Shown here piece by piece: positions 3,215-24,217 of a stretch of DNA of 64,000 bases. The stretch lies in the NCBI RefSeq assembly GCF_004011175.1, contig NZ_RQXX01000003.1:310001-374000 (forward strand). Reading direction: 5' to 3'. The notes under the pieces are model-generated. The model was not told the origin of the DNA. It searched no databases and saw nothing but the letters and a program-made list of their open reading frames with translations. How positions within the stretch are numbered: the stretch's first letter is position 1; the number at the start of each line of letters is the position of its first letter. The position numbers were made by a program, and so were the translations under genes. This DNA comes from Mesobaculum littorinae. Lineage in GTDB: Bacteria > Pseudomonadota > Alphaproteobacteria > Rhodobacterales > Rhodobacteraceae.

Positions 3215-3234
3215 TTTCTCCGCAAGAACCGGGA

Positions 3235-4843: not shown

Positions 4844-5307
4844 GTCGACTCCATAAAATTTCACCAATAAATCGTAGTAGTCAGCGCTGCCTAAAATCAA
4901 CAAAAACTTTATGCTTGTTTCAATTTTTGTCCCTCATGACAGTCGTTCGACGAGGCACGGCCTACCGGCCTACTGCTTTCCAGAAAATTCAATAAGCTCA
5001 TTTTTGCCCAATCCGCGGAAAAGTTATTTGAATCGTAGCCTTGCTGCATGCCCGAATCCAATTAGCCACCTTGTGCGCGCGCTGTCGATTTGCTTTGCCG
5101 GCTACACCGAAAATCTTTTTTTACATCGATCTCTTCGGCCTATTCCTACTGTGCACGGACTTTGCGGATTTAGGCAGTGGAACCGTTCTCGCCGCCCTTC
5201 TCAACCTTATATAAGGGCGAGAGTTTTTTCGTAAGGCCGCCGACGCGAACGTTGAGAGCATCGGCTTTTTTGGAAGGCTCGCACTCGTAGCTTGGTTGGC
5301 ACCCATG
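4844..5307. other. AT-rich intergenic region
   Basis: I find no supported gene here. It probably holds the promoter of the two-TM gene on the minus strand and the 3' end of the kptA transcript. A hairpin with a T run, and a perfect 12-base palindrome, lie at 5187-5229. Confidence 0.5.
5187..5229 (+). terminator. Terminator-like hairpin with internal palindrome
   Basis: TCTCGCC...GGGCGAGA can pair with one bulge, enclosing the perfect palindrome CCTTATATAAGG (5205-5216), and is followed by TTTTTT. It reads as a terminator on the plus strand, but I see no plus-strand gene ending here. It could end a small RNA or be a binding site. Confidence 0.35.
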
Positions 5308-5838
5308 TTAGGGAACGCCAAACCCTAAGTATCCGGCCGGAACCCGATCGGTGAGCCAAACGCCGTTGTCTGCCCTGAAAAACAGGTGCCCGTCTGTATG
5401 CATCGCCTCAGCATCTACGCGAAGGACCACCGGTTTGCCATGCCTGCGCCCGACCCGCACAGCAATCTCAACTTCATGCGACAAGTGAACCTGTCGGCGT
5501 GATCCTGGGTAGAGCCCTTCAGCAAAAATCTCGTCGAGGCTCTGCGCAGCCGTTCCATGATAAAGGTAGGGGGAAGGTACGAGGACCGGCAGCTCGAGAT
5601 CTACATTGATCGAATGCCCCTGAGCGGCGCGGATCTTGCCATCTCGGATCGTAAATCTCTGCTTGTCATTGTCGCGGACGATCTCTTCGAGGCGCTCTCT
5701 GGTCATCCTTTGGCCCACGGCTTTCATCTTGCGCAATAGCTCTTCGACCCTGACCCAACCGCCCTTTTCGATTTTCAAACCGATCAAGCCGGGTTCATGA
5801 CGCAAAACGCGTGAAAGGAACTTGCTCTCGCGGCTCAT
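5308..5838 (-). CDS. kptA: RNA 2'-phosphotransferase (Tpt1/KptA family)
   Basis: This 176-residue protein is full length for the family. It removes an internal 2'-phosphate from RNA using NAD+, giving ADP-ribose 1'',2''-cyclic phosphate. Visible motifs are LSRVLRHEP near the N-terminus, IRAAQGHS at about residues 69-76, LYHGTA at about 92-97, VHLS at about 117-120, and NGVWLTDRVPAGYLGF near the C-terminus. It sits 36 bases downstream of a small membrane protein gene that overlaps tniQ, so it is probably the last gene of the transposition operon, that is, cargo. Its bacterial role is unclear; repair of RNA damaged during phage or toxin attack is inference. Confidence 0.93.
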   Translation of the reverse strand: MSRESKFLSRVLRHEPGLIGLKIEKGGWVRVEELLRKMKAVGQRMTRERLEEIVRDNDKQRFTIRDGKIRAAQGHSINVDLELPVLVPSPYLYHGTAAQSLDEIFAEGLYPGSRRQVHLSHEVEIAVRVGRRHGKPVVLRVDAEAMHTDGHLFFRADNGVWLTDRVPAGYLGFGVP

Positions 5839-5874
5839 TTCAGTAGCGACCGAATGATTGCGGATAGGGGCGCA

Positions 5875-6108
5875 TCAGAAATCATTTTGGCCCCGATAGT
5901 CCCGAATAAGCTCCAATCTCTCATGGGCGGACCCTGTAAGGGCAAGGTGAAGGTCTTGCCGCAACCTTGTATTCTCAGTCCTCAACCGATTGTCGACCCT
6001 GCGACGATCCAGAGCGCGGTTGAGCAAAGATGCGAGAACCGGGCCGCTCGCCATCCCGACGCTACCAGCGAAGACAAACGTCAGGATCGTTATCTCAGAG
6101 CAGTTCAA
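5875..6108 (-). CDS. Small membrane/coiled-coil protein overlapping tniQ
   Basis: A 77-residue frame starts with TTG at 6108, overlapping the tniQ stop by four bases (TTGA), and has AAGG about ten bases upstream. It encodes one hydrophobic helix (ITILTFVFAGSVGMASG...) and then a charged, heptad-like stretch (NRALDRRRVDNRLRTENTRL). This would be a single-pass protein with a coiled coil. It lies between tniQ and kptA in the same direction. I know no homologue. The overlap, spacing and sensible protein features make it a credible gene, but the TTG start lowers confidence. Confidence 0.5.
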   Translation of the reverse strand: MNCSEITILTFVFAGSVGMASGPVLASLLNRALDRRRVDNRLRTENTRLRQDLHLALTGSAHERLELIRDYRGQNDF

Positions 6109-7937
6109 ATGACCGCGCCTTTGCTCGAACTGCGACCGGCCCTGTGCAGCGACGCGCTCACCAGTTCCGCGAGTGGCACGAGGTGGCCGCGCCACGCCGC
6201 GCCCTCCTGCATCGCGCCGACAGTCTCAACTCCTCGCTCGGCGAGCACGCTCCTCAGCTTGCGCGACGAGGTCCCTGCATCCTTCGCGAGCGATGCCAGC
6301 GGCACAAAGCGCGCCTGAAACCGTGCCAGACACTCGTGCCCGATAATCCGGCCCTTTCCCGGGCCGTGCGTGTAGGTTTTGTGCTCAAGGAGACCAAGGT
6401 CGCACCAGTGAGCTATGCACTGATCTTTCCAACCCGTCATTCGGCCAACCTCTTGGATGGTTAGCCCGGGTCCGCGAAGGGTCCGTTGCAGGATGGCATC
6501 GATCTCAGTCCGATCGAACTGGAAAGCGGCCAGCTTGCCTGACGTGCTGCCGAGAGATGGCGAAAGCCGCCCATCGTGTATGGCTCGGATGACGGCAAGG
6601 ACGCCGGAACGGTCAGTCGTGAACCGAAGGTTGATATCCTTCAGTGAGACCTTCGAGCCATCTACCCGGACTGCACCTCTGCCAATTCGATCCAGCAGCG
6701 TCTGAGCGGCATCCAGATCGTGTGCGGCATCCACGAGCGGCGGCACGTTCGTGGCGACAACAGAAGCCAGAAAGCCGGCTTCCCACAAGAGCTCGTATTG
6801 CTTGCGCGACACGCCAAGAAATTCCCGAAAGGCGGACTTGTCGACGAACCGGGCCCTGTTCGCGCGGATGGTATCGACCGTTGTTCGGTGGATCATTGTA
6901 TGCCGGTGCCCGAAGCCGCGACTGTAGAGTTTTCCTTCGATGAGGTCTCTGGCGACCGCAGCAACGATCCGATCGGGACGGATGCCGATCACCCGTGCGG
7001 CTTCAGCAGAAGACATCCAGTCCCGATCGCTTTCGGACCCGGCGCCGGCAGCCCCAGTGTAAGCGCCGTCGAACTCCAAGCTGATGACGGTGCCGAGTTC
7101 AGTACGAAAATCATCATAAGCCTGGTCGCTGAACCGCATCAGGCGCTGATACCAGCGACCGAGGCGCTCCGGTGCAGTCGAAGCGCTCGGGTCCCCTCGT
7201 TGCAGTCTCTCTGAGGCATCTTGCTGAAACACCGAGGGCCAGTCGCACAGCACTCTCGCCGCAGCCGTGAGAAAGGCCCGAGCTTCCTCGATGGTCTTCG
7301 GCATCGTCGTCTTCCCGTGCTTCCCTGAGCTCGTCATCCTTCCAGATGCCGCCAGGAAGAATAGAAATTCACCGATGTCGCTCGGAGCTCGAAACGCTAA
7401 GGACGGAGGTAAGCAGGCCCTCATCGGGTGCATCTCGCCGCAGACGAGAGCGGATAGCACGGTATCTGCTTCAGTCGCCGCATCTTGCTCCAGATGAAGA
7501 AGCGAACACCCGCAGCCGCAGGTGTCGTAGCCTCCCTTGCCCGGAAGCAGCGTCTCGCAACACATCGGACACTGATCTTTCAGAACCAATTCGTGGACCG
7601 TGCAAGCGGTGACAAGAGAGTGCCGCCATGCCTGCTGATGGGGTCGGCCCTCGGCAATACAGGCGGGACACACGGGAGCACTGTGATGTCGCTCGAAGCG
7701 CCAGTTCAGAAGCGCCGTCTTCGACTTCCAGCGGGGACTGATCTGCGCAAGCGAGCCTGGCTCGATGCCAAGGTTCTCTTCTGCCAAGGCAAGGTCCTCG
7801 ATCATCCGGTGACCATAGCGGAGACCGGCTTGCCCCAGGAAATCCGATACGTCGGCCCAGAAGTCTATCTCAGCTGAACGCCGCAGAAAGCCGTCGAGGC
7901 TCTCGTTCTCCTGCGGCTTGATCTCTCCCTGGGTCAT
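6105..7937 (-). CDS. tniQ: TniQ/TnsD-family target-selection protein
   Basis: This 610-residue protein is the target-site selector of a Tn7-like transposon. The N-terminus shows the TniQ start ESLDGFLRRSAE and zinc ligands at about C90-x2-C93, C112-x2-H115, C123-x2-C126 and C140-x-C142. The long C-terminal part contains helix-turn-helix-like segments and presumably reads the attachment site, as TnsD does. The ATG at 7937 overlaps the tnsC stop (ATGA), which fixes the start over an upstream one at 7955. The length is nearer TnsD than the short TniQ of CRISPR-linked elements, which favours a sequence-specific chromosomal target. Confidence 0.92.
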   Translation of the reverse strand: MTQGEIKPQENESLDGFLRRSAEIDFWADVSDFLGQAGLRYGHRMIEDLALAEENLGIEPGSLAQISPRWKSKTALLNWRFERHHSAPVCPACIAEGRPHQQAWRHSLVTACTVHELVLKDQCPMCCETLLPGKGGYDTCGCGCSLLHLEQDAATEADTVLSALVCGEMHPMRACLPPSLAFRAPSDIGEFLFFLAASGRMTSSGKHGKTTMPKTIEEARAFLTAAARVLCDWPSVFQQDASERLQRGDPSASTAPERLGRWYQRLMRFSDQAYDDFRTELGTVISLEFDGAYTGAAGAGSESDRDWMSSAEAARVIGIRPDRIVAAVARDLIEGKLYSRGFGHRHTMIHRTTVDTIRANRARFVDKSAFREFLGVSRKQYELLWEAGFLASVVATNVPPLVDAAHDLDAAQTLLDRIGRGAVRVDGSKVSLKDINLRFTTDRSGVLAVIRAIHDGRLSPSLGSTSGKLAAFQFDRTEIDAILQRTLRGPGLTIQEVGRMTGWKDQCIAHWCDLGLLEHKTYTHGPGKGRIIGHECLARFQARFVPLASLAKDAGTSSRKLRSVLAERGVETVGAMQEGAAWRGHLVPLAELVSASLHRAGRSSSKGAVI

Positions 7938-8905
7938 CCGACTTGGGCTCCCCACTCGACCCCGAGGCCTGGTAGCGAGTCGATCCGGTATTCGAGGCCG
8001 GCTTCCGCCATGATCGCAACGTAGGACCGCATGAGGTCCACCTCATCGGGCTCGCGGGTTTCGAAAAAGCTCGCAGTCGGAATGCCGGACTGCTGCATCG
8101 ACGAAGCTGCCTTGTGGAAGTCCCGTAAGTCGATCACCCCAGGCCGCGACTTGCCGAGCGCGCAGAGCTTCAGGATGCGCATCATCATTGGCACTCGACC
8201 GCCGGACGCACCGTAAAGGCGCCGCACGAAGTCTTCGAATTCCATGGCCACAGGGAAGCCCGACTCCTCGAGGCTGACGATTGCCGCATCGGCTGCGGTG
8301 CCAAAAGCCTCCCTGTCGTCGTCCGCTTGCCAGTCGTATGGCTTTAGCAGAATGGTACCACTGGCCCTGTCTCGCAACTGCTCGTTCTGGTCAATGATGC
8401 GCTGAAACCGGGGGAGGCCATCGAGAATGAGCGTTATCCCGGTCTCGTCGATGAGCGTCTTCAGATGGTCTGCGGCCGCGCGCGGACTCAAGTTCGAGCC
8501 GCGCTCCGCGATGTGATTGACTTCATCGAGAACAACCACCTCGATCCCCAGGTTTTCGATCCCGCGGTAGACTCTACCCTTTACCGAACTCGTGACCTCA
8601 TTCTTGCCGGGCTTCCGGCCCAACTGATTGAGAATCGCAGCGTAGATCTCTCTGCCGTTTGTTTGAGCGGGGAGTTTGGCGCGTATGACTTTCTTCATCG
8701 GGATCAGTGAATGGGCCGGCTCGGCGCGGTCGACGAGACGGCGCATGATCTGCGATTTTCCGACCCGAGTAGGCCCGAGAAGCGGGATGATGCCCCCCGC
8801 ATTCGGCAGCCTTGCAGCCAGCCGAACCTCAAGTTCGGCGCTGGCGCGCTCAAACGCATCATGGCGCACGATCTGGGACAGGAGGGGAAGAGCGGTGCTG
8901 GTCAT
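7934..8905 (-). CDS. tnsC: TnsC/TniB AAA+ ATPase of the transposon
   Basis: This 323-residue AAA+ protein links target selector and transposase. Walker A is GPTRVGKS at residues 44-51 and Walker B is VVVLDEV at about 123-129. An asparagine-histidine follows, and an Arg-rich sensor region lies further on. TnsC-type proteins polymerise on DNA with ATP and recruit the transposase. It sits between tnsB (three bases away) and tniQ (four-base overlap), as in Tn7 and Tn5053 operons. Confidence 0.93.
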   Translation of the reverse strand: MTSTALPLLSQIVRHDAFERASAELEVRLAARLPNAGGIIPLLGPTRVGKSQIMRRLVDRAEPAHSLIPMKKVIRAKLPAQTNGREIYAAILNQLGRKPGKNEVTSSVKGRVYRGIENLGIEVVVLDEVNHIAERGSNLSPRAAADHLKTLIDETGITLILDGLPRFQRIIDQNEQLRDRASGTILLKPYDWQADDDREAFGTAADAAIVSLEESGFPVAMEFEDFVRRLYGASGGRVPMMMRILKLCALGKSRPGVIDLRDFHKAASSMQQSGIPTASFFETREPDEVDLMRSYVAIMAEAGLEYRIDSLPGLGVEWGAQVG

Positions 8906-8908
8906 ATG

Positions 8909-10756
8909 TTACTCCATCAAGTCCATACCAGGGCGATTGGATCGCCGGGTGATGGGCAGCTTCGGAGTAGGTTGGTTCGCCCTCGCTACGGCGGAAATCT
9001 CGCTGCGAGGCGGAACCTTGGATTTCTCGAACGCCTCCACCTTTTTGCGCCGTTCCGCTTCTTTCGCCTTGGCCTTCTTCAGGTTGCTGAGTTTGCCCCG
9101 ACCAAGGCTGTCCGCTTTTCGCTGAGTCTCCAGCGCCAGTTCGATCGCGGTCGAACGGGCATCGAGATCTTCGGCTTTTGCCTCCTCGTTCACCTGCCGC
9201 AAGCGTCGTGCCTCGGCGAAACTAATCGCAGGCATACCCTGCATCTTCGCGCTTACGATCAATGGGTTTGAAAAGCCTTCCACCTTGTGCACGACGGCAA
9301 TTTCGCGCGCGTCCTGAGGATCGTAACGGACCTCAAGCTTCGCGCCGACGCCCACGTGAGAGATGAAACGTCGAAGTTGACCTTCCTTATCATTGAACTG
9401 AACTCCCTCGACTTCGATGCCGTACCTTTGGAGCGTGCGCTCTACTGTACGGGTGCAGAAAACACTTCTGATTTCTTCGGGTGTTTTGACGTTCAGGACA
9501 TGACACTCCAGGCGTTCCCAGCATTGTGTCGGAGATTCCGCATGGCGAAGCGGCGAATGGATGCCGCGACGAAGCTTCTTGCCGTACACGTCATAAGCCC
9601 ATTTCATCAGCGCTGCTTCGAGTTCATCGAGAGTGAGTGTCGCCTCCAGCATCGCCTTATCGATTCTCTGGCGATTAGGCAGATCCTTGGAAGTCGTTGC
9701 CCCGGGTAGCGTGTGCAGGAATTCGTTGACTTCCCTCATCATTCTTTCGACGAACGGCTTCCTGTCGGGGCAGCCGGGGGTGTTCTTCGCCCACTCAATA
9801 CCAAGCGCCTCGACGATCCGGGAAAGTTCGGGTCCGCTGTTCTCCGGTCCCTGATCCGAATGAACCATCAAGGCACATGCGGACACTCTTAACCGGTTCT
9901 CGATGCCGAATTTTTCGAAGAACGCATCGCTGCGTTCCGTCATGGTGTCCTTGAGGGCCCGGATGGTAAGAGCCTCTTTCGGTGCCTCCAGGCTCAATTG
10001 GATCGAGACCGGAAAGCCCATAGCCGCATCGACAGCCAAGCAAATTGTTGGCCGCCCTATGCAGACTCTCTCCTCGTTCACCACCATGATGTCGCCCGTC
10101 GTCGAGTCGATCTCAATGAGATCGAACGGCGCCTCGATCTTGTGATAGAACTGAGCCTGCAAACGCAATTTCCGGGCCGTCGCAGAGTCATGGCGGCCCT
10201 TTATGACGTCATCGGCAGGAAGCGCCTTCAGAACCGCCGCCAGAGACCGCTTCCCGCAGTCGCCCGGCTCTATTCCCTCCTGAGCACATTTGGCGCGATA
10301 CTTCTTTTCGATGTTCGCAGATAGCTTGCCGAGAGAAAGGCGGTCGTTGCTGAGATAAAGTTCTTCGAGAACGTCCCACGCAATCTTCTCGTAGGTCGCG
10401 TCGTATCTACTGCCTCGGTTGCCGCTATTCTGCGTCGCGGGCACGAGGGCGTTTGCCCCTCCCTGAGCCTTCTTCTTTTTCCAGATTTGTATAGTTCGCG
10501 GCGTTAGCACCTTGGGCGCGACCCGCGAATACTTTTCGCTACTGTCGAGCTCTTCCTTCACGGTCTTTGCCGCGAGCTTTGCCGACAGGCCGGAATTGCG
10601 AAGCTCGGTCTCACGCTTGATGACGAAAAGCGCCATCCGCTGTCGCACGAGCGCGTCTTCATCCGGCATGAAATCGAGGGTCTGCTCGTTCCCGGGCTTG
10701 GTCGCGAAACCACCTGCGATCAGGCTCCGGTAGACCGCGATCGACGTCTCGAACAC
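8909..10756 (-). CDS. tnsB: TnsB/TniA DDE transposase
   Basis: This 615-residue retroviral-integrase-fold transposase cuts the 3' ends of the element and joins them to target DNA. The catalytic triad is visible as D217 (IEIDSTTGD), D301 (VHSDQGPENSG) and E337 (FVERMMREVN), a DD35E spacing. N-terminal helical DNA-binding domains and a Mu-type C-terminal barrel flank it. The last 100 residues are highly charged and could form the TnsC-contacting tail. The start is GTG with AGGA upstream, and about 100 bases separate it from tnsA. It appears intact. Confidence 0.94.
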   Translation of the reverse strand: MFETSIAVYRSLIAGGFATKPGNEQTLDFMPDEDALVRQRMALFVIKRETELRNSGLSAKLAAKTVKEELDSSEKYSRVAPKVLTPRTIQIWKKKKAQGGANALVPATQNSGNRGSRYDATYEKIAWDVLEELYLSNDRLSLGKLSANIEKKYRAKCAQEGIEPGDCGKRSLAAVLKALPADDVIKGRHDSATARKLRLQAQFYHKIEAPFDLIEIDSTTGDIMVVNEERVCIGRPTICLAVDAAMGFPVSIQLSLEAPKEALTIRALKDTMTERSDAFFEKFGIENRLRVSACALMVHSDQGPENSGPELSRIVEALGIEWAKNTPGCPDRKPFVERMMREVNEFLHTLPGATTSKDLPNRQRIDKAMLEATLTLDELEAALMKWAYDVYGKKLRRGIHSPLRHAESPTQCWERLECHVLNVKTPEEIRSVFCTRTVERTLQRYGIEVEGVQFNDKEGQLRRFISHVGVGAKLEVRYDPQDAREIAVVHKVEGFSNPLIVSAKMQGMPAISFAEARRLRQVNEEAKAEDLDARSTAIELALETQRKADSLGRGKLSNLKKAKAKEAERRKKVEAFEKSKVPPRSEISAVARANQPTPKLPITRRSNRPGMDLME

Positions 10757-10855
10757 TTGGCTTCCTGACCCTCGAGAACAACGGTCGTGGAAGACTTCGA
10801 AAGGAACTTCAACTTTCGTCCATCCGTGATGTGGTGGCCGAACTGGTTATGCAGT

Positions 10856-11563
10856 TCAGAATGCATCGAGTGGCAACTCCATCAGGTGAGTTGGCTGCCC
10901 TTCAGCCCTGCGAATGAGGGTCCTGCCTGAAATTCGATCCTGCTGGACGTCGCAGGTCAGATGTCCACGCGCGAGGCAGCTGAGGATCAGGGCGTCGCCA
11001 AATCCGCGAGACCGCAGCTCACCAAGTGGCACCCCATCCAGGCACTCCGACCTGACGAACGTGATTTCCGGCTGGGTTGGTTCATACGCCCTCGCCATGG
11101 AGAGCGACCGGATGTTTCGCATGTAGGCATCGTGCAGAATGCGATCGTCGATGATGATCAAACGCACCCCAAAGCGGGCCAGCACGCTCGGATAGCTTAG
11201 AACATTCGGATTTCGCTCGATGAGTTCAGAGTGCTTGACCTCGACAAGCACGTGCCCGCTGCGCAAGCGAAGCTCGAAATCCGGCGTGTAGACGATCGGA
11301 CGACTTCCGCTGTCTCGTGCCCATTCGTAGAGATCGTCTTTCGATGGGAATCGCCGACCGGTTGCAAGATCGAATGTCATGGGCTGCGTGCGTGCGCTGA
11401 GAACCCGCGGATCGAGGCCAAAGGCAGCTCCTGCGCTCGCCTCAAGACGGCTTTCGTATGCCGTCAGTCGCCCGCCAGCCGGCGCGAGATAGTGCACCTT
11501 CTTCTGCTGACCGCGAATGTGCGTACGCCTGGCAACCTTCGCGTTTTTCCAATCGATTCTCAT
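10856..11563 (-). CDS. tnsA: TnsA-like 5'-end endonuclease
   Basis: This 235-residue PD-(D/E)XK nuclease is the partner that cuts the 5' ends and so permits cut-and-paste movement. Candidate residues are E37 in AYESRLE, D95 in YTPDF, and E108/K110 in LVEVK, in the same order as in Tn7 TnsA. The C-terminal half contains a helical domain that normally contacts TnsC. It is first in the minus-strand operon and divergent, with 76 bases between, from the nuclease-RepB fusion gene. Having TnsA separates this element from Tn5053/Tn402 types, which lack it. Confidence 0.9.
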   Translation of the reverse strand: MRIDWKNAKVARRTHIRGQQKKVHYLAPAGGRLTAYESRLEASAGAAFGLDPRVLSARTQPMTFDLATGRRFPSKDDLYEWARDSGSRPIVYTPDFELRLRSGHVLVEVKHSELIERNPNVLSYPSVLARFGVRLIIIDDRILHDAYMRNIRSLSMARAYEPTQPEITFVRSECLDGVPLGELRSRGFGDALILSCLARGHLTCDVQQDRISGRTLIRRAEGQPTHLMELPLDAF

Positions 11564-11639
11564 GGAGCTTTACCCCTTCTGTTAGAACTACTAAACTGGC
11601 ACCAGCATGTAGTGGGAGTCTTTTCTTGGTGCCGTCCCC
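11564..11639. promoter_or_regulatory. Divergent promoter region with inverted repeats
   Basis: This 76-base spacer must hold both start regions for tnsA and the nuclease-RepB fusion. It contains GGCACCA (11598-11604) and its complement TGGTGCC (11627-11633), 22 bases apart. It also holds a GTT...AAC framed 16-mer at 11581-11596 and a TGTAGT at 11608-11613. Any of these could be an operator or a partition-like site for the RepB domain next door. Confidence 0.45.
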
Positions 11640-13475
11640 ATGACTTCACATCGCATCGGCGATTTTGCCGACGATCCGAACTGGATCAGCTTTGGAAAAT
11701 CGCTTCGTCATGCCGTGCAAGACCCATCCAGCTATGGCTTTACGAGCTCAGAGAAGCTCCTCGCGGAAGTCGCGCGTTTGCGTGGCGTCGACACCGCGAG
11801 TCTGCGCAACCCGCTCGCAGCCGTAGCTTGGATCGAGGCCAACGCGCCGGAAGCGCTCAACGACGAAAACGCGCACGTCCCGATGACCGGGGTGCTGCTC
11901 CTGTCGCAAATTGGAATTCTCGACAAAGGCTTAGCAGAGAAGATCGGGCCGGATTTTTTTTCTGGCGCCCTCTCGCGTGAGGACCTCAGGAGAGCCCTGG
12001 AGGAGCTCAAGGCGAGACCGGGAATCGGCAAGATTGCGGCCCACGATCGCATCAAGAGAGCCGAGGCTTTCGAGAACCGCGTCTTCGACTACCTTCAATC
12101 CCATCCGGACGTGCTTGGCCTCGGCGAGAGGGTCACGGTGATTCCCAGCACCCGAGCCGCGACTGCCCCATACGACTTCGCTGCGATCCGCGACGGAGAA
12201 ATGGTCGCCGCAATCGAGGTCAAATCGTCCCGGCAAAAGCTACATTATCGGTATCTCTTCGAGACCTTGGCGATGATCGCGCTCGCCGCTCGAAAGTACA
12301 ACCGCGCCCTCCTCGTTGTTCCGGAAGACTGGGGCGATGCAATCGACAAGATCGGAGAGCTCATTCGCTCGCTGAGCCTCGAGGGTGTTCAGCATGCCAT
12401 GTTCTCAGAAGAGGATGGCGGTCACCTGACGGTATTCAACTCGGCGACTGACAAGGCCAAGCCTGGCAGGCAGCCCACCGAAGCACACCTCCGAGACCCC
12501 TTGAGTACGAGGCTTGGCATCCTATCCGGCAAGTCGGAGGACAGAATATTGACCGATGAAAAACGAGCGCAGTCGCAGAATGATGCCTCGGGCGAAACGA
12601 AGTTGGCAGCTGCCAACTCTGCCGACGAGGCAAACCGGATCGTCGAGCTCGATCCGTCCAACATCCACTCTGCGGGCGTCGAGGATCGCATGGATGGTGG
12701 GCTGCGAGACATAGATGCACTCGCCGCCAGCATACGAGCCGTCGGACAAAAGATCCCGATCCTCGTCCGACCACACACGCAAAGAAGCGGAGAGTATGAG
12801 ATCGTGGCAGGGCGCCGACGCCTCGAAGCGTGCCGCATCGCCGGCCTGCCTGTGCGTGCCGAGATTCAGGATCTGGATGAACGGGAGCTTGTCATCGGGC
12901 AAGCGATCGAGAACATCGCCAGGGAGGATCTGACCTATATCGAGCGCGCCCGTGTCGCAGTTCGCATGGTCGATGAAGTGGGCCTCCCGCAGTCCGCAAT
13001 CGATGAAGCCTTCTCCTGCGGAAAGACAGACCGATCACGATACCTGAAGATCGGACGAGGCTTGTCCGGCGATATTCTCTCTTGGATCGGAAAGGCGCCA
13101 TCGGTGGGCCGGCCGCGGTGGGAAAGACTGGTAAAACTCGTGGCACGCGACAGCGAAGCTGAACCGCGGATGCGTGCAACGATAGATGCCTTAGAGGATG
13201 AGGCAGTAAACCTTACATCCGATCAGCGGTTCGCGCGCATCTGGTACGCCGCAGGAAAAGTGCCTGAGCCGGCGGATGACCGGCAGCTGCCAGACGACTT
13301 GGTCTCGGTCGAGGGCCTTTCCGAGCCTGTAGCGCGAGTGAGAAAGTCGAAAGACGGGCTCGAGATCACGCTCTTCGACGGCACAAAAGACGGGCTCTTG
13401 GAGTGGGTTGAGGCGAACAAGTCGTCGGTGATCGAGCAACTGGTTCGGTTGCACGAGAGAAAAACAGGCTCTTAG
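11640..13475 (+). CDS. Fusion of PD-(D/E)XK nuclease-like domain and RepB/ParB domain
   Basis: This 611-residue protein has three parts. Residues 1-130 are a helical region I do not recognise. Residues about 140-270 are nuclease-like, with E143/E146, D179 (PYDF) and E193-V-K195 (AIEVKSS). After a linker, residues 335-500 match RepB of repABC plasmids: IVELDPSNI, KIPILVRPH, GEYEIVAGRRRLEA (the CTP-site region), ENIAREDLT, then a helix-turn-helix and PSVGRPRWERL. No ParA/RepA is near. It is transcribed away from tnsA. RepB-type domains clamp DNA from a specific site, so a role in end recognition, target choice or maintenance of the element is possible but unproven. Both domain calls are by motif. 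Confidence 0.85.
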   Translation: MTSHRIGDFADDPNWISFGKSLRHAVQDPSSYGFTSSEKLLAEVARLRGVDTASLRNPLAAVAWIEANAPEALNDENAHVPMTGVLLLSQIGILDKGLAEKIGPDFFSGALSREDLRRALEELKARPGIGKIAAHDRIKRAEAFENRVFDYLQSHPDVLGLGERVTVIPSTRAATAPYDFAAIRDGEMVAAIEVKSSRQKLHYRYLFETLAMIALAARKYNRALLVVPEDWGDAIDKIGELIRSLSLEGVQHAMFSEEDGGHLTVFNSATDKAKPGRQPTEAHLRDPLSTRLGILSGKSEDRILTDEKRAQSQNDASGETKLAAANSADEANRIVELDPSNIHSAGVEDRMDGGLRDIDALAASIRAVGQKIPILVRPHTQRSGEYEIVAGRRRLEACRIAGLPVRAEIQDLDERELVIGQAIENIAREDLTYIERARVAVRMVDEVGLPQSAIDEAFSCGKTDRSRYLKIGRGLSGDILSWIGKAPSVGRPRWERLVKLVARDSEAEPRMRATIDALEDEAVNLTSDQRFARIWYAAGKVPEPADDRQLPDDLVSVEGLSEPVARVRKSKDGLEITLFDGTKDGLLEWVEANKSSVIEQLVRLHERKTGS

Positions 13476-13630
13476 CTGTAAAGGCTACCGGGAAAGATGC
13501 TAATAACTAATGACGACGGATTTTCTGATGTTATCCACACGCCCACACTTACATTGCCCCCATCGAACCCGCCGCCAGAATTAGAAAAAATGTTGTAAAC
13601 GCACCAATTTTTCGGCTATTGAAAACTACA
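13476..13630. repeat. Candidate right end of the Tn7-like element
   Basis: The 155 bases after the fusion gene are AT-rich. Read inward from 13630 on the minus strand they begin TGTAGT and contain TTTACAA and AATTCT, as does the candidate left end at 3442. There is room for several transposase sites. The next gene's stop codon is only 11 bases beyond. I see no long shared repeat and no matching flanking duplication, so the boundary is tentative. Confidence 0.3.
13531..13539 (+). promoter_or_regulatory. Perfect consensus DnaA box
   Basis: TTATCCACA lies in the non-coding stretch after the nuclease-RepB fusion gene. It is a single box, so it is not evidence of an origin. In a transposon end it could tie movement to replication. 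It may also be chance in AT-rich DNA. Confidence 0.3.
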
Positions 13631-13641
13631 CTTTTGATTAC

Positions 13642-15159
13642 TCATTCTTCCGCTGCGAGCTTACTTAACGTCGAACTGACCGCATATGCTTCTTTCTGCA
13701 AATGACTGAAGTTCTCCCTCTGGTAAATGCGCGGCCTGGGCTCACCTTCATACCATTTCAGTATCTCAGCACCTCGACGTCGCTTGCCTTTCTGAAAGAT
13801 ATCTCGATATCTTTTCGGAGAGATTCCCTCGAAATGGTCGAAATTAACTTTCTCAAGGTCGTGACTCCCCACTGCGATGGAATCCGTATGAGAACTGGGT
13901 GCGCGGCTTTTTGGGTATGGCTCTATAAATACAACGCGCTTGATCCCGGAGGCCACAATGTGTTTCGCGCAATTGTGGCAAGGAAAGGTTGTCACAAACA
14001 TTGTGGCTCCCAACAAAGATCTGCCAAGGCGCGCCGCATCGCAGATCGCACTCATTTCCGCATGAGTCATTCGCCCGTACTCTGTTATGTCCGATATAAG
14101 AGCGTCCTCTATAGCGTCCTCAAGTCGCTCTTTCATTTCCGGCGATTCAAGCGTAAAACTGGAATCAACGAGACCAGCGTGTTGCAGCTTCTGTAGGAAA
14201 TTTACAATAATTCGTTGTCGCTCAACACTGTTTTGCTCGGTCCCCCGCTCGACATCTCGAGCACGAAATTCGTCATCCGACCAGTAATTCCCACCATTCG
14301 CTTTGGGCACCTCGTTGCAGCCGAGGGAAATAACTTCACCGTCTTGGGTAAAAATTGCAGATCCCACTTGTCGTGATAGATCGACTGACCGCAGCGCTGC
14401 CGCTGCCGCCATATACGCACCATATTCTTCACGTGACGGGCTCTTGGTGTTGTCGCCAAAAAAGGATCTCGTAAAGTCGAGAATCTTTGAGGACATTCGG
14501 GTAGTGTCTTTTCCGTCAACAAAGAAATCCCCGAGGTGAAATATGCGCCCTACTTGTTGGCCGAAACTGGTTTCGCCGCCGTCATCATTAAGTTGATGCT
14601 CATCTGTGGCCACAAGATCACGAGCATTTCGCTCACATGTATTGACAGATAACCCGGGGTGATCTCGTGAAAGCTTGTTCTTCAGGTTCTCGATGCGGGA
14701 ATCCTTGTCGAGCGATACCGATACCTGAAGGAACTTCATACCATAGACACTTCTAAGAAGTTCTATTTCTTCTTCACGTTTGAGCTGCCTGATGATGTAT
14801 GCCATTTTCGGAATTGCCCTCTGTGGGCTGGTCGCCTCGCCATCGTTTTCTGGCTGATGCTGTCGAAATGATCTTATCTCTGAGATTGCCAGAGCAGCCA
14901 TAGCCGCTCCATTATCAGCTGTTTTGCAAAAGGCGTTTGCTGTCGCAATTTTGTCGGCATATAGGGTAGATGGTTTTGGCCCATGAACGTCATGCTCGTA
15001 CTTCTTGAGAGCTTTTGTCAGATGAATGTTTTCGGATCGGTAGCCAACTTGGCTCAAAGCGTCTGAAAGTGCTTGCTGCACATCGTCCATGTTCACGCCA
15101 ATTGGGCCGACGAGCCCAAAGATGAGTTCAGGACAGTTTATTTCCGCAACTTCCGACAT
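13642..15159 (-). CDS. avcD: AvcD-type antiphage dCTP deaminase
   Basis: This 505-residue protein has two domains. The N-terminus looks like a P-loop kinase fold (LIFGLVGPIG at residues 12-21). The C-terminus is a CMP/dCMP-deaminase fold with zinc ligands H366-A-E368 and P393-C394-x2-C397. This layout and length match the AvcD/DCD antiphage proteins, which deaminate dCTP during infection, deplete it and so block phage replication. In the known systems the enzyme is held silent by a non-coding RNA (AvcI) encoded just upstream; the 306 bases upstream here are non-coding and in the right place. The gene is AT-rich compared with the backbone. Confidence 0.88.
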   Translation of the reverse strand: MSEVAEINCPELIFGLVGPIGVNMDDVQQALSDALSQVGYRSENIHLTKALKKYEHDVHGPKPSTLYADKIATANAFCKTADNGAAMAALAISEIRSFRQHQPENDGEATSPQRAIPKMAYIIRQLKREEEIELLRSVYGMKFLQVSVSLDKDSRIENLKNKLSRDHPGLSVNTCERNARDLVATDEHQLNDDGGETSFGQQVGRIFHLGDFFVDGKDTTRMSSKILDFTRSFFGDNTKSPSREEYGAYMAAAAALRSVDLSRQVGSAIFTQDGEVISLGCNEVPKANGGNYWSDDEFRARDVERGTEQNSVERQRIIVNFLQKLQHAGLVDSSFTLESPEMKERLEDAIEDALISDITEYGRMTHAEMSAICDAARLGRSLLGATMFVTTFPCHNCAKHIVASGIKRVVFIEPYPKSRAPSSHTDSIAVGSHDLEKVNFDHFEGISPKRYRDIFQKGKRRRGAEILKWYEGEPRPRIYQRENFSHLQKEAYAVSSTLSKLAAEE

Positions 15160-15465
15160 AATTTACGAACACCTCCCAAAGAGTAACTCTCTTTTCGAGC
15201 CATCTTAAGCATTAAAAATCTTGCAGCAATGCCAAATGGATGGCAACTGAGGTTTTCCGCTTGACAGCGGTTGGGTCCGGTAGCCGCAAAAATGGCATAG
15301 CAGGAAAGAAGGTGGGGTGAGCGGTTTGGGGCGTGTCGTGCAGTTGGTGGGAATGTGAGGGCGGCGAAACCTTCGCGTGAACTGACACCTTACAACCGGA
15401 GACGGCGACCGCCTGGGATATCACGCCTTAAATAAGATTACCGATGCCACAAACGTTGTTCTAAC
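15160..15465 (-). ncRNA. Candidate AvcI-like regulatory RNA / avcD leader region
   Basis: This non-coding stretch lies between the avcD start and the IS5-family element. In studied AvcID loci the inhibitory RNA lies here, in the same direction. It includes a 70-codon frame (15212-15424, minus) with no recognisable features. A GGGAGG ribosome site lies 10-15 bases before avcD. I see no sequence proof of an RNA; the call rests on position only. Confidence 0.3.
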
Positions 15466-16834
15466 AGGCTGCTGAAGAAGTCAGCCCTCGACCCGGTTTG
15501 AGGAACATGATTCATCCTTTTGGCTATCAGGGCGGAGGGTGATTATGCTCGGCATAGACGCGACGAGCGGATCGCTGTTCAGCTACGTTGACCTGGAGGC
15601 GCGCATTCCGGCACGTCATCCGCTACGCAAGATCAGGCAGGTTGTGAACGACGCGCTCGCCAGTCTCGATGCCGAGTTTGAAGCGCTCTATACCGATTTC
15701 GGTCGCCCCTCGATTGCGCCGGAACGCTTGATCCGGGCCAGCCTGCTCCAGATCCTCTTCTCGATCCGCTCTGAGCGGCAGTTGATGGAGCAGATGCAGT
15801 ATAACCTGCTGTTCCGCTGGTTCGTGGGGCTCGGTATTGACGACCAGGTCTGGGTCCCGACGGTGTTCACGAAGAACCGCGACCGACTGCTGACGACCGA
15901 GATGTCGCGCAAGGTGATGGCCGCCATCCTGGGGCACCGGGAGGTCGCGCCGCTCCTGTCGGACGAGCACTTCTCGGTCGATGGCACGCTGGTCAAAGCC
16001 TGGGCCTCGACGAAGAGCTTTCAGCCGAAGCCTGACCTCGCACCGCCTGATGACGAGGGGCCGGGCGGGCCGCCCTCGTCAGACACGACCGCCGCCGACC
16101 AGCCCGAACAGACCCACGCCGAGACCAACTCCATGCCCCGCCCCACCACCCAGCACCGCAACGCCGAGGTCAACTTCCGGGGCGAGAGGCGCTCGAATGC
16201 CACCCATGTCTCGACGAACGATCCGGACGCCCGGCTCTACAGGAAGTCACCCGGCACCGGGGCGATGCTGTGCTTCATCGGTCATGCGCTGATGGAGAAC
16301 CGCAGCGGCCTGATCGTTCAAGGCGATCTGACCGAAGCGGACGGCCATGCCGAACGGCGTGCTGCGCGCGACATGGTTCACCGCCACTCTCCGGGATCGA
16401 CCCGCAAGCTGACCCTCGGAGCAGACAGGGGATATGACGCTGCCAAGTTTGTCGCTGATCTGCGACAGGCATGCGTGACACCGCACGTCGCGCAGAAATC
16501 GCGGCATTCAGCGATCGACGGGCGCACCACCCGGCACAGGGGATATGACCTGTCCCTGAAGCACCGAAAGCGGATCGAAGAGGCGTTCGGCTGAGCTAAG
16601 ACCGTCGGCGGCATGGCCCAGACCATCTATCGCGGCGTCGAGCGGGTGCGCTCCCGGTTCGTTCTGACAATGGCGGCCAACAACCTCGCCCGGCTGCCCT
16701 GCTTGCTGACCGCATGAAGCTGAAAGGCGGCATCAGCCGCGCATACCGTTCGGTCCGACGGGCCGGAAGCTCGAGGCAACCGATCCGCTCCCGAGGAAAT
16801 AGTTCCGCCCCGGCGACTTCTTCAGCAGCCTGCT
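15466..16834 (+). mobile_element. IS5-family insertion sequence
   Basis: The element is bounded by a perfect 18-base inverted repeat, CAGGCTGCTGAAGAAGTC at 15466-15483 and its complement at 16817-16834. It is flanked on both sides by CTAA (15462-15465 and 16835-16838), a target duplication. Length is 1369 bases, with one transposase gene inside. The intact repeats and duplication point to a fairly recent insertion, between the avcD leader and an IS256-family remnant. Confidence 0.93.
15539..16717 (+). pseudogene. IS5-family transposase with premature TGA
   Basis: From 15539 the frame encodes a DUF772 N-terminus (YTDFGRPSIAPERLIRASLLQ) and a DDE transposase core (FSVDGTLVKAWAS, GADRGYD, KRIEEAFG). 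A TGA at 16592-16594 interrupts it after residue 351, where relatives have Trp (EEAFGWAKTVGG). The same frame then continues as AKTVGGMAQTIYRG up to NNLARLPCLLTA and stops at 16717. One TGG-to-TGA change explains this. The DDE residues are all before the stop, but 41 conserved residues are lost, so activity is doubtful. Confidence 0.88.
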
Positions 16835-16835
16835 A

Positions 16836-17410
16836 ATGGCCGGGGAGGCCGGGTTAGTCCCGATCGAGATACGGCTGCGCGCCAACGTCCTCACGACCAT
16901 CGAGGCCGTTTTCGAGGAAGGACCGGCCAGCTTTCTCAGTCCGCTTCGCTACTGTCGAGTGGACGGCGTTGCGAAAGGCTATCGCCACGGGCATCGCGGG
17001 CGGCAACGTACTGGCAGGTATAGCACCGAGACGATGCAGGTGCCGCGCGCCCGGATCGAAAATCAAGACGGCGAGATGATGGAGTGGCGGTCGAAGGTGC
17101 TGCCCCGTTAACCGAGACTGACGAAGTAGGCCGACGTTCTGATCGCGTCGGTCTACCTCTCCAGAACCAACACGCGCCGGGTCAAGCGGGCGCTATTGGG
17201 TCGGTTCGTAGGAACCGTCAGCAAAGGCTTTGTCAGCCAGGCCTGACTCAAGATCAAGGCAGGCTGGGACGCCTGGTGTGCACTCCGCCTGACCGACGAG
17301 GACATTGTCCAGCAGGCTCAGGGCGCTGACAGATCGAGATGCGCAAGGTCGATGGCTGGAAACCCTGTCGCAGCCCCTCGGACCCGTGCCGATGGACCTC
17401 GCCGCGTGAG
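16836..17410 (+). pseudogene. IS256-family transposase, internally deleted remnant
   Basis: The N-terminal part is clear (LRANVLTTIEAVFEE, then GYRHGHRGRQRTG, VPRARIENQDGEMMEWRSK). Two in-frame stops then interrupt it, after which TNTRRVKRALLGRFVGTVSK and LTDEDIV continue. The catalytic centre is missing. The far C-terminus resumes near 17330 as MRKVDGW and, after a one-base shift, ETLSQPLGPVPMDLAA, with TGA at 17408-17410. It is a dead element whose 5' edge meets the IS5-family insertion. Confidence 0.8.
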
Positions 17411-17560
17411 AAACCAGACCTTCAAGTGCCGGGGTATCCTGACTGGAAACTTTAACAGCGTTCTCGACACGACAAGCGGTTGACCACGTTAGTTCAGTGC
17501 GACAATTCCCTTGCGACGATTCACACGATGATTCACTGTGTATCTGACAGGGAGACAATC

Positions 17561-17722
17561 ATGAAAACAGCACGCTCGGCCACGCCGGAACAAGAAGAGA
17601 GCGACCAGTTTTACAAACCAAATCAAGAACTTGTGGCAACCATTAAAGCGATGAAGCAAGAAGCTGCGCAACAAAATGTTTACTATCGCGAACAGCTTGA
17701 AGCTATCTTCCCCGCCCGCTGA
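17561..17722 (+). CDS. Small hypothetical protein
   Basis: A 53-residue frame starts at an ATG with GGAG six bases upstream. The product is charged and Gln-rich (TPEQEESDQFYKPNQELV...), and probably helical. I recognise no family. The frame is open to 17480, but the upstream part has no start with a ribosome site. Its isolated place between a dead transposase and the TIR gene leaves function open. Confidence 0.45.
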   Translation: MKTARSATPEQEESDQFYKPNQELVATIKAMKQEAAQQNVYYREQLEAIFPAR

Positions 17723-18121
17723 GCTACTAATTGTTCGCCGGACTGTCCTGAGACTAAGTGGTAGCAGTGGCTTTTGAAACGGAAGGGAGTCGTTGCAGAG
17801 CTCTCGCCCAAGGCGTAAGCCACCTTTACACCCTCTGACCTGCTCGCACGATCCTTGAGGAAAAGATACCGACTGAGACCTGCGGTGCCGCTTCCAGCCC
17901 TGAGACGAGACTACCGAGTACCTGATCGGACGCCTTTTCGAACGCGCCGTAAAAAACGCGATCTGGATTGAGCGACCCTCAGGGCTGGCGCATTCCCAAG
18001 GACTACGGATTTCTTAGCCTGTGTCCGCTGCGTCCGCCGATCTACCTTTGATCCTTCCGGGCATGCAGACCGACATTGATCTCAATCACCTCGGGACCGG
18101 ACGCCGCCTCAACATAGAAAT
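17723..18121. other. Intergenic stretch without a recognised gene
   Basis: About 400 bases lie between the small hypothetical gene and the TIR gene stop. I see short open stretches only, and no repeat or RNA that I recognise. It may be decayed mobile DNA. Confidence 0.4.
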
Positions 18122-18586
18122 CTAAATACTTACCAACTCTGCGATCTTGGCAGCGACTTCAGCCATTGTCTCTTCCGCAGTATTCAGACCAGCTCGGGAC
18201 GCCAGCAAAAGGCTTACTTTTTCGAGCTCTTCGTAAGTGGTTCCGTGAACAACGGGGATAAGCCTCCCGCGTCGAAGCAGTGCCGAAAGCTCTTTATCAG
18301 CAACGCCCTCAGTCGGCAGGCGTCGTAACATAGCTGGTGTGACCAACACGATGCCTACCCGGGAATTCACAAGGCCCTTGTCGATCGCCCGCATCATAGG
18401 AACGCCAAGGCCGAGGTCCTGTTCACTGAACCAAACTCGGACTCTGCGCGACACGAGAAGATCGTATAGCTCTTTTGCTGAGCTTTGTCTGTCATCCCAT
18501 GCACGGCAAAGAAACGCGTCAAGGAGGTCAGGTTGCGAAGCCGCAAGAACTTCCACATTTCCCCGAACCGGGGTGAGTGCTTGCAC
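18122..18586 (-). CDS. TIR-domain protein
   Basis: From a GTG start the 154-residue product is almost all TIR domain: DAFLCRAWDDRQ (strand A), RVWFSEQDLGLG (box 2 region), MMRAIDKGLVNSRVGIVLVTP, DKELSALL and the later LIPVVHGTTYEEL. Bacterial TIR domains often break down NAD+ or make signalling nucleotides from it in antiphage defence. The frame stays open upstream to a TAG near 18705 and encodes plausible protein (RYTPEQVQALTPVRG), but it has no ATG, GTG or TTG before the GTG at 18586. The real N-terminus may therefore have been lost. There is no obvious partner gene next to it. Confidence 0.82.
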   Translation of the reverse strand: MQALTPVRGNVEVLAASQPDLLDAFLCRAWDDRQSSAKELYDLLVSRRVRVWFSEQDLGLGVPMMRAIDKGLVNSRVGIVLVTPAMLRRLPTEGVADKELSALLRRGRLIPVVHGTTYEELEKVSLLLASRAGLNTAEETMAEVAAKIAELVSI

Positions 18587-18893
18587 TTGTTCCGGCGTGT
18601 ACCGGACCGCCGAATCTGCTCCCGACCAGCGCGGTTTTGTGATGCGATCCCGCGAACGGCTTCCGCTCAGACCGCCGCTATTTCTTCTGTAATTCTATGA
18701 AGGTTGCGAGAACGATTCATAACCGCTCGAGCCCCAGCCAGATCTGCCATAACGACTTCTGCATGCAGGACAGTTTGCCGCGGCAGCTGGTGAGCTGTGC
18801 CCCCTGACTGGCGCCGTGCATTTAGCCATGCACTATATCTCCCGTACCACTATACGATCTATCGGCGGATTGCTTCAGCTGTTGTCCTTACCT
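18587..18893. other. Spacer between TIR gene and ImmA/IrrE gene
   Basis: The left 120 bases are the open extension of the TIR frame. The rest is AT-richer with no gene I can support. It should hold the TIR promoter (minus strand) and the 3' end of the metalloprotease transcript. Confidence 0.4.
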
Positions 18894-19964
18894 TTACTTC
18901 ACCACTCGCAATCGTGGCGTGGCCTGCGTAATTGAATGAAGCGTATAAATGTCTTCTTCGCTTGAGCGGAGCGCTTGCGCGAGATCGGACACGCCGTAGC
19001 CGAGTTCCTCGAGATGAAGCCTTACGATCTCCGGAAGGACCGTGGGAATTTCGACCGTGAGATCGAGCTCGGGCGGCTCGGTTCTGCGGTAACCCATCGA
19101 GCTCATTTGTCGCCAGAGATACTGACTCTGGTTGTCGGTAATCGCGCCAATCTTTTTTGCCCGGTAAAGAAGTGCTGCCATGGACACGTGCCAAACCGGC
19201 TTCAATGCGGCCAGCCGCTGTATCGTAAGGCGCCGACCGGAAAGGTGGGGCCGAACATCGCGCGCCGGCATAAGTAACGCCGACGCGAACTCGTTCGCCT
19301 CATTTTCCATTTCTGGCGACGGCACCTGATGCATGACGACATGCCCGAGTTCGTGCGCGAGGCTGAACCGCTGCCGATCCGCCGGCATGTTGCGGTTCAG
19401 GAAGATGCACGGGGGCATGTCCGGTATCTGAACCGTGAAGCCATCCACCTTGAGCGCGGCGAAGTCGCAATGGACGACGATGCAGCCTGCTCTTTCCACC
19501 CACGCGACCAAGTCTCGTATTGGTCCCGAAGGTACAAGCCAGGTGCGCCTGATGAGGTCCGCGATACGTTCTGGGTCGCCACCGTACTCGTCAACATCCA
19601 GACGCGGAAGAGAAAGCTCCGGCTCCAGCTCAGCTGAATCAAGCAGTCTGCGGATATGCAGAATCCTGATGTTGAGTTCGGCTTCCAGACGCTCGATCGC
19701 CTTTTGCCCAACGCTCGCCCGCTTCCGGTATTGGACGCTCATCGGCAGGCCAATGACCCGATCATTCTGGAAGAAGAAGTTGATAGGAAAACCCAAGGCT
19801 TTGCCGACGCTCTTCAACACGTCTTCGGTCGGCCCGATCAGCCCGTTCTCGAGTTTAGACAGATTGGCTTGTGACACACCTGAGCGTGCAGATAGCTCTG
19901 ATTGACTCCATCCCCGTGCCTGCCGCGCGATCCGCAGCAGGTCCTGATTGAAATTGGCAAGCAT
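18894..19964 (-). CDS. XRE-family regulator fused to ImmA/IrrE metalloprotease
   Basis: This 356-residue protein has an N-terminal XRE helix-turn-helix (WSQSELSARSGVSQANLSKLENG, residues about 19-41) and a central ImmA/IrrE zinc protease with the motif SLAHELGHVVMH. The C-terminal 100 residues are helical. Such proteins cleave a repressor or partner in response to DNA damage or phage, or act in toxin-antitoxin-like pairs. It overlaps by one base with an upstream gene of unknown function, so the two form one operon. The fused HTH suggests it regulates that operon. Confidence 0.9.
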   Translation of the reverse strand: MLANFNQDLLRIARQARGWSQSELSARSGVSQANLSKLENGLIGPTEDVLKSVGKALGFPINFFFQNDRVIGLPMSVQYRKRASVGQKAIERLEAELNIRILHIRRLLDSAELEPELSLPRLDVDEYGGDPERIADLIRRTWLVPSGPIRDLVAWVERAGCIVVHCDFAALKVDGFTVQIPDMPPCIFLNRNMPADRQRFSLAHELGHVVMHQVPSPEMENEANEFASALLMPARDVRPHLSGRRLTIQRLAALKPVWHVSMAALLYRAKKIGAITDNQSQYLWRQMSSMGYRRTEPPELDLTVEIPTVLPEIVRLHLEELGYGVSDLAQALRSSEEDIYTLHSITQATPRLRVVK

Positions 19965-20554: not shown

Positions 20555-21052
20555 GCTCAGGCCTCTTTGATTTCACAAACGCTTAGCACCGTCGATCTAC
20601 AAAAACAACAGCAAATTATTCACTCTATAATTCTCCGCACTGTTTTGAGCGATTGCCCCGACGGTCTACTTTCCAGGCAGCGGCTCAGACGGCTCCCAAG
20701 CGCAGCGAAGGACCGGTTGCCGGCCGCATGAGGCTTGCTGTGGCAGCTTGGTTAAAAATGAGAGGGTCATCACCCTGAGCATAGGGCTTCAAACAAAATG
20801 CCTGTAGCTACGCCGAAAGTTTCGGTGGTGCACCGCTGTTGATGGGCAATGGGTTTTTCGCACCGCTTTACACCTCGCGAGCCGAGACAAGCAGAGGCTC
20901 CGCATCTGTGCACGCGCCCAAAACGCATCGCGCGACCCAGGCATATAAGAAACGCCATCCCACTGATTTATAACCGTAAATATCGCATCTCAGCGGCGAC
21001 GGCGCGAAAAACTATGCGCGCGGCGAAAAACTATCCGCGCGCCTACACGCGC
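20555..21052. other. Right margin of the accessory island
   Basis: About 500 bases lie between the ImmA/IrrE operon promoter and the gyrB stop. I find no supported gene, tRNA or attachment duplication. A two-copy tandem repeat lies at its right edge. Confidence 0.45.
21004..21041. repeat. Tandem 19-base repeat (two copies) after gyrB
   Basis: GCGAAAAACTATGCGCGCG (21004-21022) is followed at once by a copy with one change (21023-21041). The pair ends 12 bases from the gyrB stop codon. It could be a slipped duplication, a binding site or part of gyrB transcript ending. Confidence 0.75.

Positions 21053-24217
<3,165 letters not shown>

Follow-up and report, generated by a model that had tools for sequence, protein, structure and literature searches.

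A single gene in a Tn7-like element of Mesobaculum littorinae joins a nuclease-type part to a plasmid-type RepB part, and a candidate parS, the DNA site at which RepB would load, lies within the gene itself. The gene was found in a 64-kb stretch of contig NZ_RQXX01000003.1 (positions 310,001 to 374,000, here called the window and numbered from its first letter), where the Tn7-like element occupies 2566-21047, 18.5 kb with both ends intact. The fusion of the two parts is real. Its function can be read in several ways, and the one that we favour, tentatively and as something short of an even chance, is that the protein is a parS-addressed nuclease, resting on its own gene and loading on other elements that carry parS. 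The transposon may thereby recognise, and perhaps attack, another mobile element; the nuclease fold, DNA cutting and exclusion of competitors are what we infer.

The fusion protein

A preliminary description of this stretch, drawn from its letters and reading frames, had proposed that one protein combines a nuclease-like with a RepB part, and the open reading frame does run without interruption over exactly 11640-13475 on the plus strand. Its identification of a plasmid-type RepB domain from the GRRR and ENIAREDLT boxes is borne out as well: the boxes lie at residues 391 and 424 and residues 324-602 score 216.1 bits against TIGR03454 (plasmid partitioning RepB), where the equivalog cut-off is 201.5. 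PF02195 (ParB_N) also exceeds its Pfam cut-off. The Pfam RepB model PF07506 was not detected in the window's own genome, which leaves TIGR03454 and ParB_N as the basis of the family call. The gap that the gene was said to share with the divergent tnsA does measure 76 bases, and the reported lack of a ParA/RepA partner agrees with a search of the 64-kb window using one ParA query, from genome G386 (below), which gave no match at E up to 1. Two claims needed amendment. Among the proposed active-site residues, D179, E193 and K195 are as given and the glutamates are E142 and E145, not E143 and E146; and the gene lies between the tns operon and the right end as described, but 7.6 kb of DNA with other cargo separates it from that end (21047). 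No promoter or terminator patterns were found in 11450-11750.

A candidate parS within the gene

The parS sites of repABC systems follow the consensus GTTNNCNGCNGNNAAC, with the search form GTTNNNNGCNNNNAAC (PMC9040568). The window contains one match to this search form, GTTGGCAGCTGCCAAC, a perfect palindrome where the nuclease and RepB halves meet. It is one of five perfect 16-bp palindromes in the window, where the next-best parS-like site has 4 mismatches. Among 164 genomes of the family the 16-mer occurs in four: once in the host genome, the sole copy being that inside the fusion gene, four times in G386 (all on the RepB contig), twice in G431 and once in G541. A reversed control pattern is found in none of the 164. 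G653, from outside this draw, has three copies in a 20-kb stretch, while G720, which has the nuclease without RepB, shows neither RepB nor GTTGGCAGCTGCCAAC in a stretch of the same length.

Two copies lie inside repB in both G386 and G653, at equivalent places 579 nt apart; the fusion gene retains the first of these sites and has lost the second. The parS site is made up of five LAAAN codons, which the genes of the window, G386 and G653 have in identical form; at identical residues in general, codon agreement with the window is only 46.5% for G386 and 44.7% for G653. In 28 RepB loci the commonest class of perfect 16-bp palindrome is GTT...G (9 loci, the next class reaching 6), which supports the parS consensus in this data set. 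The 8-base consensus by itself is unexceptional, present in 12 of the 28 loci when other patterns reach up to 14, and weight was given to parS only through perfect palindromes and the exact 16-mer. A pairing of the RepB half with GTTGGCAGCTGCCAAC as its cognate parS is supported by these sequences. The site lies 962 nt from the start codon of the fusion gene, which puts it roughly 1 kb away from the divergent promoter.

Two further motifs were considered. GGCAGCTGCC, the 10-bp core of parS, recurs in the fusion gene at 13282-13291 without the outer bases; it could be the remnant of a second site, although the second site of the relatives lies elsewhere. GTTAGAACTACTAAAC, between tnsA and the fusion gene, was rejected as a parS since its centre does not fit. 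In G386 (L035:6923) and G431 (L091:4058) a further GTTGGCAGCTGCCAAC immediately precedes a related abortive-infection gene, of which the G431 version is shortened. This suggests that parS also serves gene control in these genomes, as though RepB regulated defence genes too.

The RepB half and its relatives

The closest relatives of the RepB half are stand-alone RepBs in G386 (53% identity) and G653 (60-64%, over a shorter stretch), and AFSCGKTDRSRYLKIGRG is identical in all three. The G386 repB is surrounded by integrase-like and primase-like genes (both sub-threshold), an abortive-infection gene (above cut-off) and genes read as restriction-type, and is followed directly by a 213-amino-acid ParA-type gene, of which G653 has a partial copy; the G653 repB is near a phage-type integrase (above cut-off). 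In these relatives RepB is preceded by MAARKSSLRDLAAKSRK, where the fusion has instead the linker behind its nuclease. Since ParBs commonly contact ParA through an N-terminal peptide, the nuclease has probably taken the place of that contact in the fusion.

Homologues located mostly on plasmids had been named in advance as telling against a link with the tns genes. Such matches abound for the RepB half, in 3644 plasmid records, with the RepBs of PLSDB plasmids less than 60% identical to both RepB queries. Plasmid records gave no match at E up to 1 to the N-domain or to its G556 homologue (below), and a full-length fusion homologue was found in no plasmid and no phage record at 80% coverage, nor among the matches listed from genome contigs, viral contigs and relatives' genomes. 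Phage matches came from 91 records, all 20 of those listed being to the RepB half; genome contigs gave a single weak match to the RepB part, in a Clostridiales metagenome-assembled genome, and viral contigs no relative of the full protein or of queries A1 and A2. Judged by their relatives, the two halves of the fusion have different histories.

The nuclease half

We searched for the N-domain with the single sequence in 385 genomes of the class and with profiles in 295 genomes of the family and 149 of the order. It is rare: the class search returned the window's own copy plus one rejected match, the family profile its own copy with G556 and G674, and the order profile its own copy with G556 and G720. 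The rejected match, in G280 (E 7e-4), was dropped for lying inside a frame read as type I restriction R-subunit-like, and four family-profile matches at E 0.003-0.008 were dropped as noise. Two congeners of G720 lack the domain, leaving G720 the one positive of three. The homologues stand alone in all three other cases: that of G556 is complete, with 270 amino acids, 47% identity in the alignment and a contig end 1 kb away; that of G720 has 272 amino acids; and that of G674 is a C-terminal piece that adjoins a KAP NTPase and is read as cut by an insertion sequence (IS). Near this IS-cut domain are about five tandem copies resembling GGGGAGTTTTTGCGTCGC (by eye; L074:12010-12140), which could be iterons or transposon-end repeats.

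E193 and K195 are invariant in all four aligned sequences, the window included, and E145 and D179 in the three that reach them (window, G556 and G720); it is from the conservation of these active-site residues that the domain is taken as a probable nuclease. NOV_C and HSDR_N, which we take to be PD-(D/E)XK families, gave sub-threshold Pfam matches in two members over the active-site stretch. No Pfam family exceeded its cut-off for the nuclease half, and no PADLOC or PHROG family matched it at E up to 0.1. The PD-(D/E)XK-like domain of the preliminary description has its residues in its favour, and structure prediction was of low confidence: AlphaFold2, run on the single sequence, gave pLDDT (predicted local distance difference test) values of 41.7 for the whole protein and 48.5 for the N-domain, and a fold search with the low-confidence N-domain model gave no match at E up to 0.001. 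Near the active site the models, too poor to count, have a helix, three strands, a helix and then a further helix and strand, an order that would fit a PD-(D/E)XK fold. ParB, SopB and KorB DNA-binding domains, 7 among the 50 matches listed of 86 (E 1.1-6.6), were treated as noise, the model being poor. Homology of the N-domain to TnsA was rejected, with an hhalign probability of 0.8% over 25 columns around the active site only.

Linkage to tnsA and gyrB

A second gyrB-linked element, in G720, has the nuclease half at the equivalent position next to tnsA. Its nuclease gene stands alone, is separated from tnsA by 89 bases and points away from it, as in the window; gyrB follows. Identity between the window and G720 is 38% for TnsA and 35% for the N-domain, a similar divergence. 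The G720 element is decayed, with only a C-terminal piece of tniQ left (56% identical to TniQ residues 497-599 of the window) and with tnsB and tnsC not found in the 20-kb stretch. A palindrome shared between such gaps had been suggested as worth seeking, and TTAG-N5-CTAA is common to the two: over GTTAG-N3-TACTAA the gaps agree in 12 of 14 bases. Matches as good arose in 8 of 500 shuffled pairs (for 16- and 20-base matches the counts were 12 and 7), and the common inverted repeat is suggestive only.

To the question, raised in the preliminary description, of whether homologues always adjoin tnsA, the answer is no. Two of the four N-domains are tns-linked, both behind gyrB, and the domain is missing from both other tns loci that were checked. 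These are in G456, where tnsB carries a stop and tnsA is short, and G574, which have the nearest TnsB relatives (32-36% identity); neither has an N-domain or RepB beside tns, and the N-domain profile finds none elsewhere in either genome. The check covered these two; TnsB matches in 13 further genomes are weaker (25-28%), and in the class sample the window's TnsB is alone at E up to 1e-40 (1 of 385). In G556 and G674 the search for TnsA gave nothing at E up to 0.001. Since two of the four N-domains are tns-linked and two TnsB relatives lack it, the N-domain gene is, on this sample, a recurrent accessory gene that does not always accompany tns; the stand-alone homologue next to tnsA suggests that gyrB-linked Tn7-like elements have such an accessory gene. 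DnaQ-like exonuclease genes that resemble one another (RNase_T, below cut-off) are present beside the G720 nuclease (L078:9804-10451) and in the parS-bearing DNA of G386 (L035:3818-4378) and G431 (L091:10896-11660).

A possible parS-addressed nuclease

In the reading that we favour, a stand-alone nuclease-type gene would have been joined to a parS-RepB module from another mobile element and would now encode an accessory protein of the gyrB-linked Tn7-like transposon. The fusion would load at parS as a sliding clamp dependent on CTP (cytidine triphosphate), bringing the nuclease along. At rest it would sit on its own gene, within the ~1 kb of sliding that separates it from the tnsA/nuclease promoter, and its own level would be kept low; such self-control is plausible, since KorB clamps can get to promoters at distances of up to 1.5 kb (PMC11790492). 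On an incoming element with several copies of GTTGGCAGCTGCCAAC the fusion would load and cut, and the competitor would be excluded. That self might be spared by site number, with one parS of its own versus three to four beside the related RepBs, is a guess.

Several observations argue for this reading. The nuclease residues, the DNA-recognition segment and the nucleotide-box residues are kept and no ParA was found, and the same parS is found on other mobile-type DNA of the same family, so the fusion could load and cut there. We also count the defence-type cargo nearby in its favour. Conflict over parS has a precedent in SGI1, which destabilises IncC plasmids through parS-like sites that their ParB binds (PMC10954446). 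The parS data would fit both a marking and a guarding of the element. A more specific form, in which the centromere code (parS) of competitors serves as the address of the nuclease, site number separates self from non-self and the sites of an invader titrate the fusion off its own gene, strikes us as unlikely.

Other points weigh against a parS-addressed nuclease. A parS-directed cutter would be expected to lose the target site from its own gene, yet the gene carries one, and the five codons concerned offer many synonymous escapes from it. The fusion has been seen once, and its parS binding, CTP use and cleavage are predictions. The 8-codon run AFSCGKTD also has identical codons, so codon identity is not unique to the kept parS site and is there supportive, not decisive. 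Three viral contigs with GTTGGCAGCTGCCAAC carry no RepB relative in the stretch examined, and there is no sign of phages as targets. As for the N-domain, the unrelated DUF7471 and ATPase inhibitor zeta score about as weakly as the nuclease families, and a profile search of solved structures returned no nuclease and two irrelevant matches.

Alternative explanations

The alternative that fares best, though we consider it somewhat unlikely, is control in cis: the RepB clamp would slide from the in-gene parS to the shared promoter and silence both tnsA and the fusion gene itself, or would mark the element, and the nuclease would serve transposition, perhaps by acting on donor or target DNA. The divergent nuclease beside tnsA in two gyrB-linked elements, with TnsA and N-domain alike diverged, would be expected on this account, as would the inverted repeat common to both gaps and the keeping of the host genome's parS 16-mer in the fusion gene only, 962 nt from its start codon. 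Yet G720 retains the nuclease in a 20-kb stretch where tnsB, tnsC and most of tniQ were not found, two of the four N-domains come from genomes where no tnsA of this kind could be detected, and two tns loci have no N-domain; and as G720 has neither RepB nor parS in its 20 kb, a role for parS cannot be general.

It is unlikely that the fusion is ordinary defence-type cargo, in which the nuclease would act as in its stand-alone homologues, RepB would add dimerisation or general DNA clamping and parS would be a leftover. That stand-alone homologues exist, one of them adjoining a KAP NTPase, agrees with such a role, as do the neighbouring defence genes, in which the cargo of Tn7-like elements is rich (PMC8649781). 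The nuclease half, however, is without a PADLOC, PHROG or above-cut-off Pfam family, and parS is exactly preserved in an otherwise poorly conserved linker. A chance fusion of two decaying genes with no present function is more doubtful still and would be highly improbable: there is a single example, the relatives' second in-gene parS has been lost and an IS is nearby, but 611 codons are open, the catalytic and nucleotide-box residues are present, and the tns reading frames and element ends are intact. Partition, with RepB stabilising an excised or circular form through a host ParA, has very little chance of being right, for despite the RepB domain, its parS and ParB-like and ParA-like matches together elsewhere on the host contig, no ParA of its own was found, the segment in front of RepB has been replaced, and no repC-type gene stood out among the open reading frames read, no model search having been aimed at repC.

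Relation to known systems

The fusion resembles the RepB of repABC systems in that its RepB domain exceeds the TIGR03454 cut-off and its parS fits the published consensus (PMC9040568), and differs in having no RepA beside it, a nuclease-like N-terminus, a parS inside the gene, a chromosomal transposon as its home and no detectable PF07506. With the RepBs of G386 and G653 it shares an identical recognition segment and the same parS 16-mer at an equivalent place in the gene; those, in contrast, have ParA and two in-gene parS sites, and no nuclease. ParB-CTPase folds have been described away from parAB, often in association with mobile elements, and as fusions to further domains, HNH being one (Kaljevic et al. 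2025, PMC12704722); in the present fusion the partner is of PD-(D/E)XK type and a parS lies in cis. The main text of that paper does not mention Tn7, transposon or RepB. KorB of RK2 is likewise a ParB-type clamp that acts away from its site, within ~1.5 kb, but it works with KorA, and no nuclease part is mentioned in the available passages (PMC11790492). The Tn7 selectors TnsD, TniQ and TnsF (PMC10293859) are, like the fusion, accessory genes of Tn7-like elements; nothing indicates target selection by the fusion.

Two survey texts on Tn7 that we searched, PMC10293859 included, mention no ParB, RepB or gyrB. Our search of the literature on ParB with Tn7 or nucleases turned up no such fusion, and we found there no description of an accessory nuclease gene of gyrB-linked Tn7-like elements and no report of gyrB as a Tn7-like attachment gene. 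Orphan and fused ParBs are already known; what is new is the variant, a PD-(D/E)XK-type partner with an in-cis parS in a Tn7-like element. Were the favoured reading true, the segregation signal of a rival would have become a mobile element's weapon or switch, and plasmid partition would be linked with the biology of Tn7 and with immunity against other elements.

The Tn7-like element and its cargo

The element is Tn7-like by its tns operon, TGT...ACA ends, repeats and 5-bp duplication. TnsA, TnsB, TnsC and the TniQ-type protein form a single minus-strand operon (11563-6105). TnsA falls below the PF08722 cut-off (E 9.3e-5; 23.4 bits, cut-off 26.5), and its identity is backed by alignment. The termini are TGTAGGCGCGCG at 2566 and an inverse copy ending at 21047; in crude shuffles of two-base blocks, such termini with their pair of duplications arose in none of 200. 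An empty site could not be read from synteny, as four relatives share only gyrB with the window by blastn. The features are collected in Table 1.

Table 1. Features of the Tn7-like element, the fusion gene and flanking gyrB, in window coordinates
Feature	Position	Strand	Remarks
Target-site duplication, left copy	2561-2565	.	CGCGC, 5 bp
Left end	2566-2700	+	begins TGTAGGCGCGCG; repeats akin to TAGTTTTTCG are candidate TnsB sites
TniQ/TnsD-like target selector	6105-7955	-	616 amino acids; PF06527 30.7 bits, cut-off 27
TnsC (TniB/AAA)	7934-8905	-	PF05621 and PF13401 above cut-off; Walker motifs
TnsB transposase	8909-10756	-	PF09299 above cut-off; PADLOC TnsB 2e-10
TnsA endonuclease	10856-11563	-	D95, E108 and K110 present; aligns with G720 and G574
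Divergent intergenic region, tnsA/fusion gene	11564-11639	.	76 bases
Inverted repeat TTAG-N5-CTAA	11582-11594	.	also in tnsA/nuclease gap of G720
Nuclease-RepB fusion gene	11640-13475	+	611 amino acids, no internal stop
N-domain, residues 1-262	11640-12425	+	helical part, then PD-(D/E)XK-like stretch with E145, D179, E193 and K195
Candidate parS GTTGGCAGCTGCCAAC	12602-12617	.	inside fusion gene, codons 321-326, LAAAN
RepB domain, residues 324-602	12609-13445	+	ParB_N at 350-426; helix-turn-helix (HTH) segment AFSCGKTD at 457
Anti-phage dCTP deaminase	13642-15159	-	NF041025 448.7 bits, cut-off 400; PADLOC dCTPase
IS-like insertion	15462-16835		21-bp ends 95% complementary; between deaminase and TIR genes
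TIR protein	18122-18586	-	match to C-terminal part of ThsB model
HTH and IrrE-like peptidase, PADLOC RmrA	18894-19964	-	Pfam and PADLOC
Right end	20990-21047	-	CGCGCGCCTACA outermost; two repeats 17/18 alike, 19 nt apart
Target-site duplication, right copy	21048-21052	.	CGCGC; abuts gyrB stop codon at 21053
gyrB	21053-23527	-	Tn7-like element sits behind gyrB

The gyrB stop followed by 5 bp and TGTAGG is common to the window and G720 (L078:10618-10637; n=2), where no left end and no second copy of the duplication were found. Two diverged Tn7-like elements in one bacterial family each lie exactly 5 bp past the gyrB stop, and gyrB is a candidate attachment gene for a TniQ/TnsD lineage.

Defence genes are abundant among the cargo of Tn7-like elements generally (PMC8649781). 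The element also encodes a 476-amino-acid protein (3473-4903) with no Pfam match at E up to 1 and no PADLOC match at E up to 0.1. A gene for KptA (RNA 2'-phosphotransferase) at 5308-5838 is 61% identical to one in G456 (L059:4956-5501), so that KptA is encoded in or near both tns loci.

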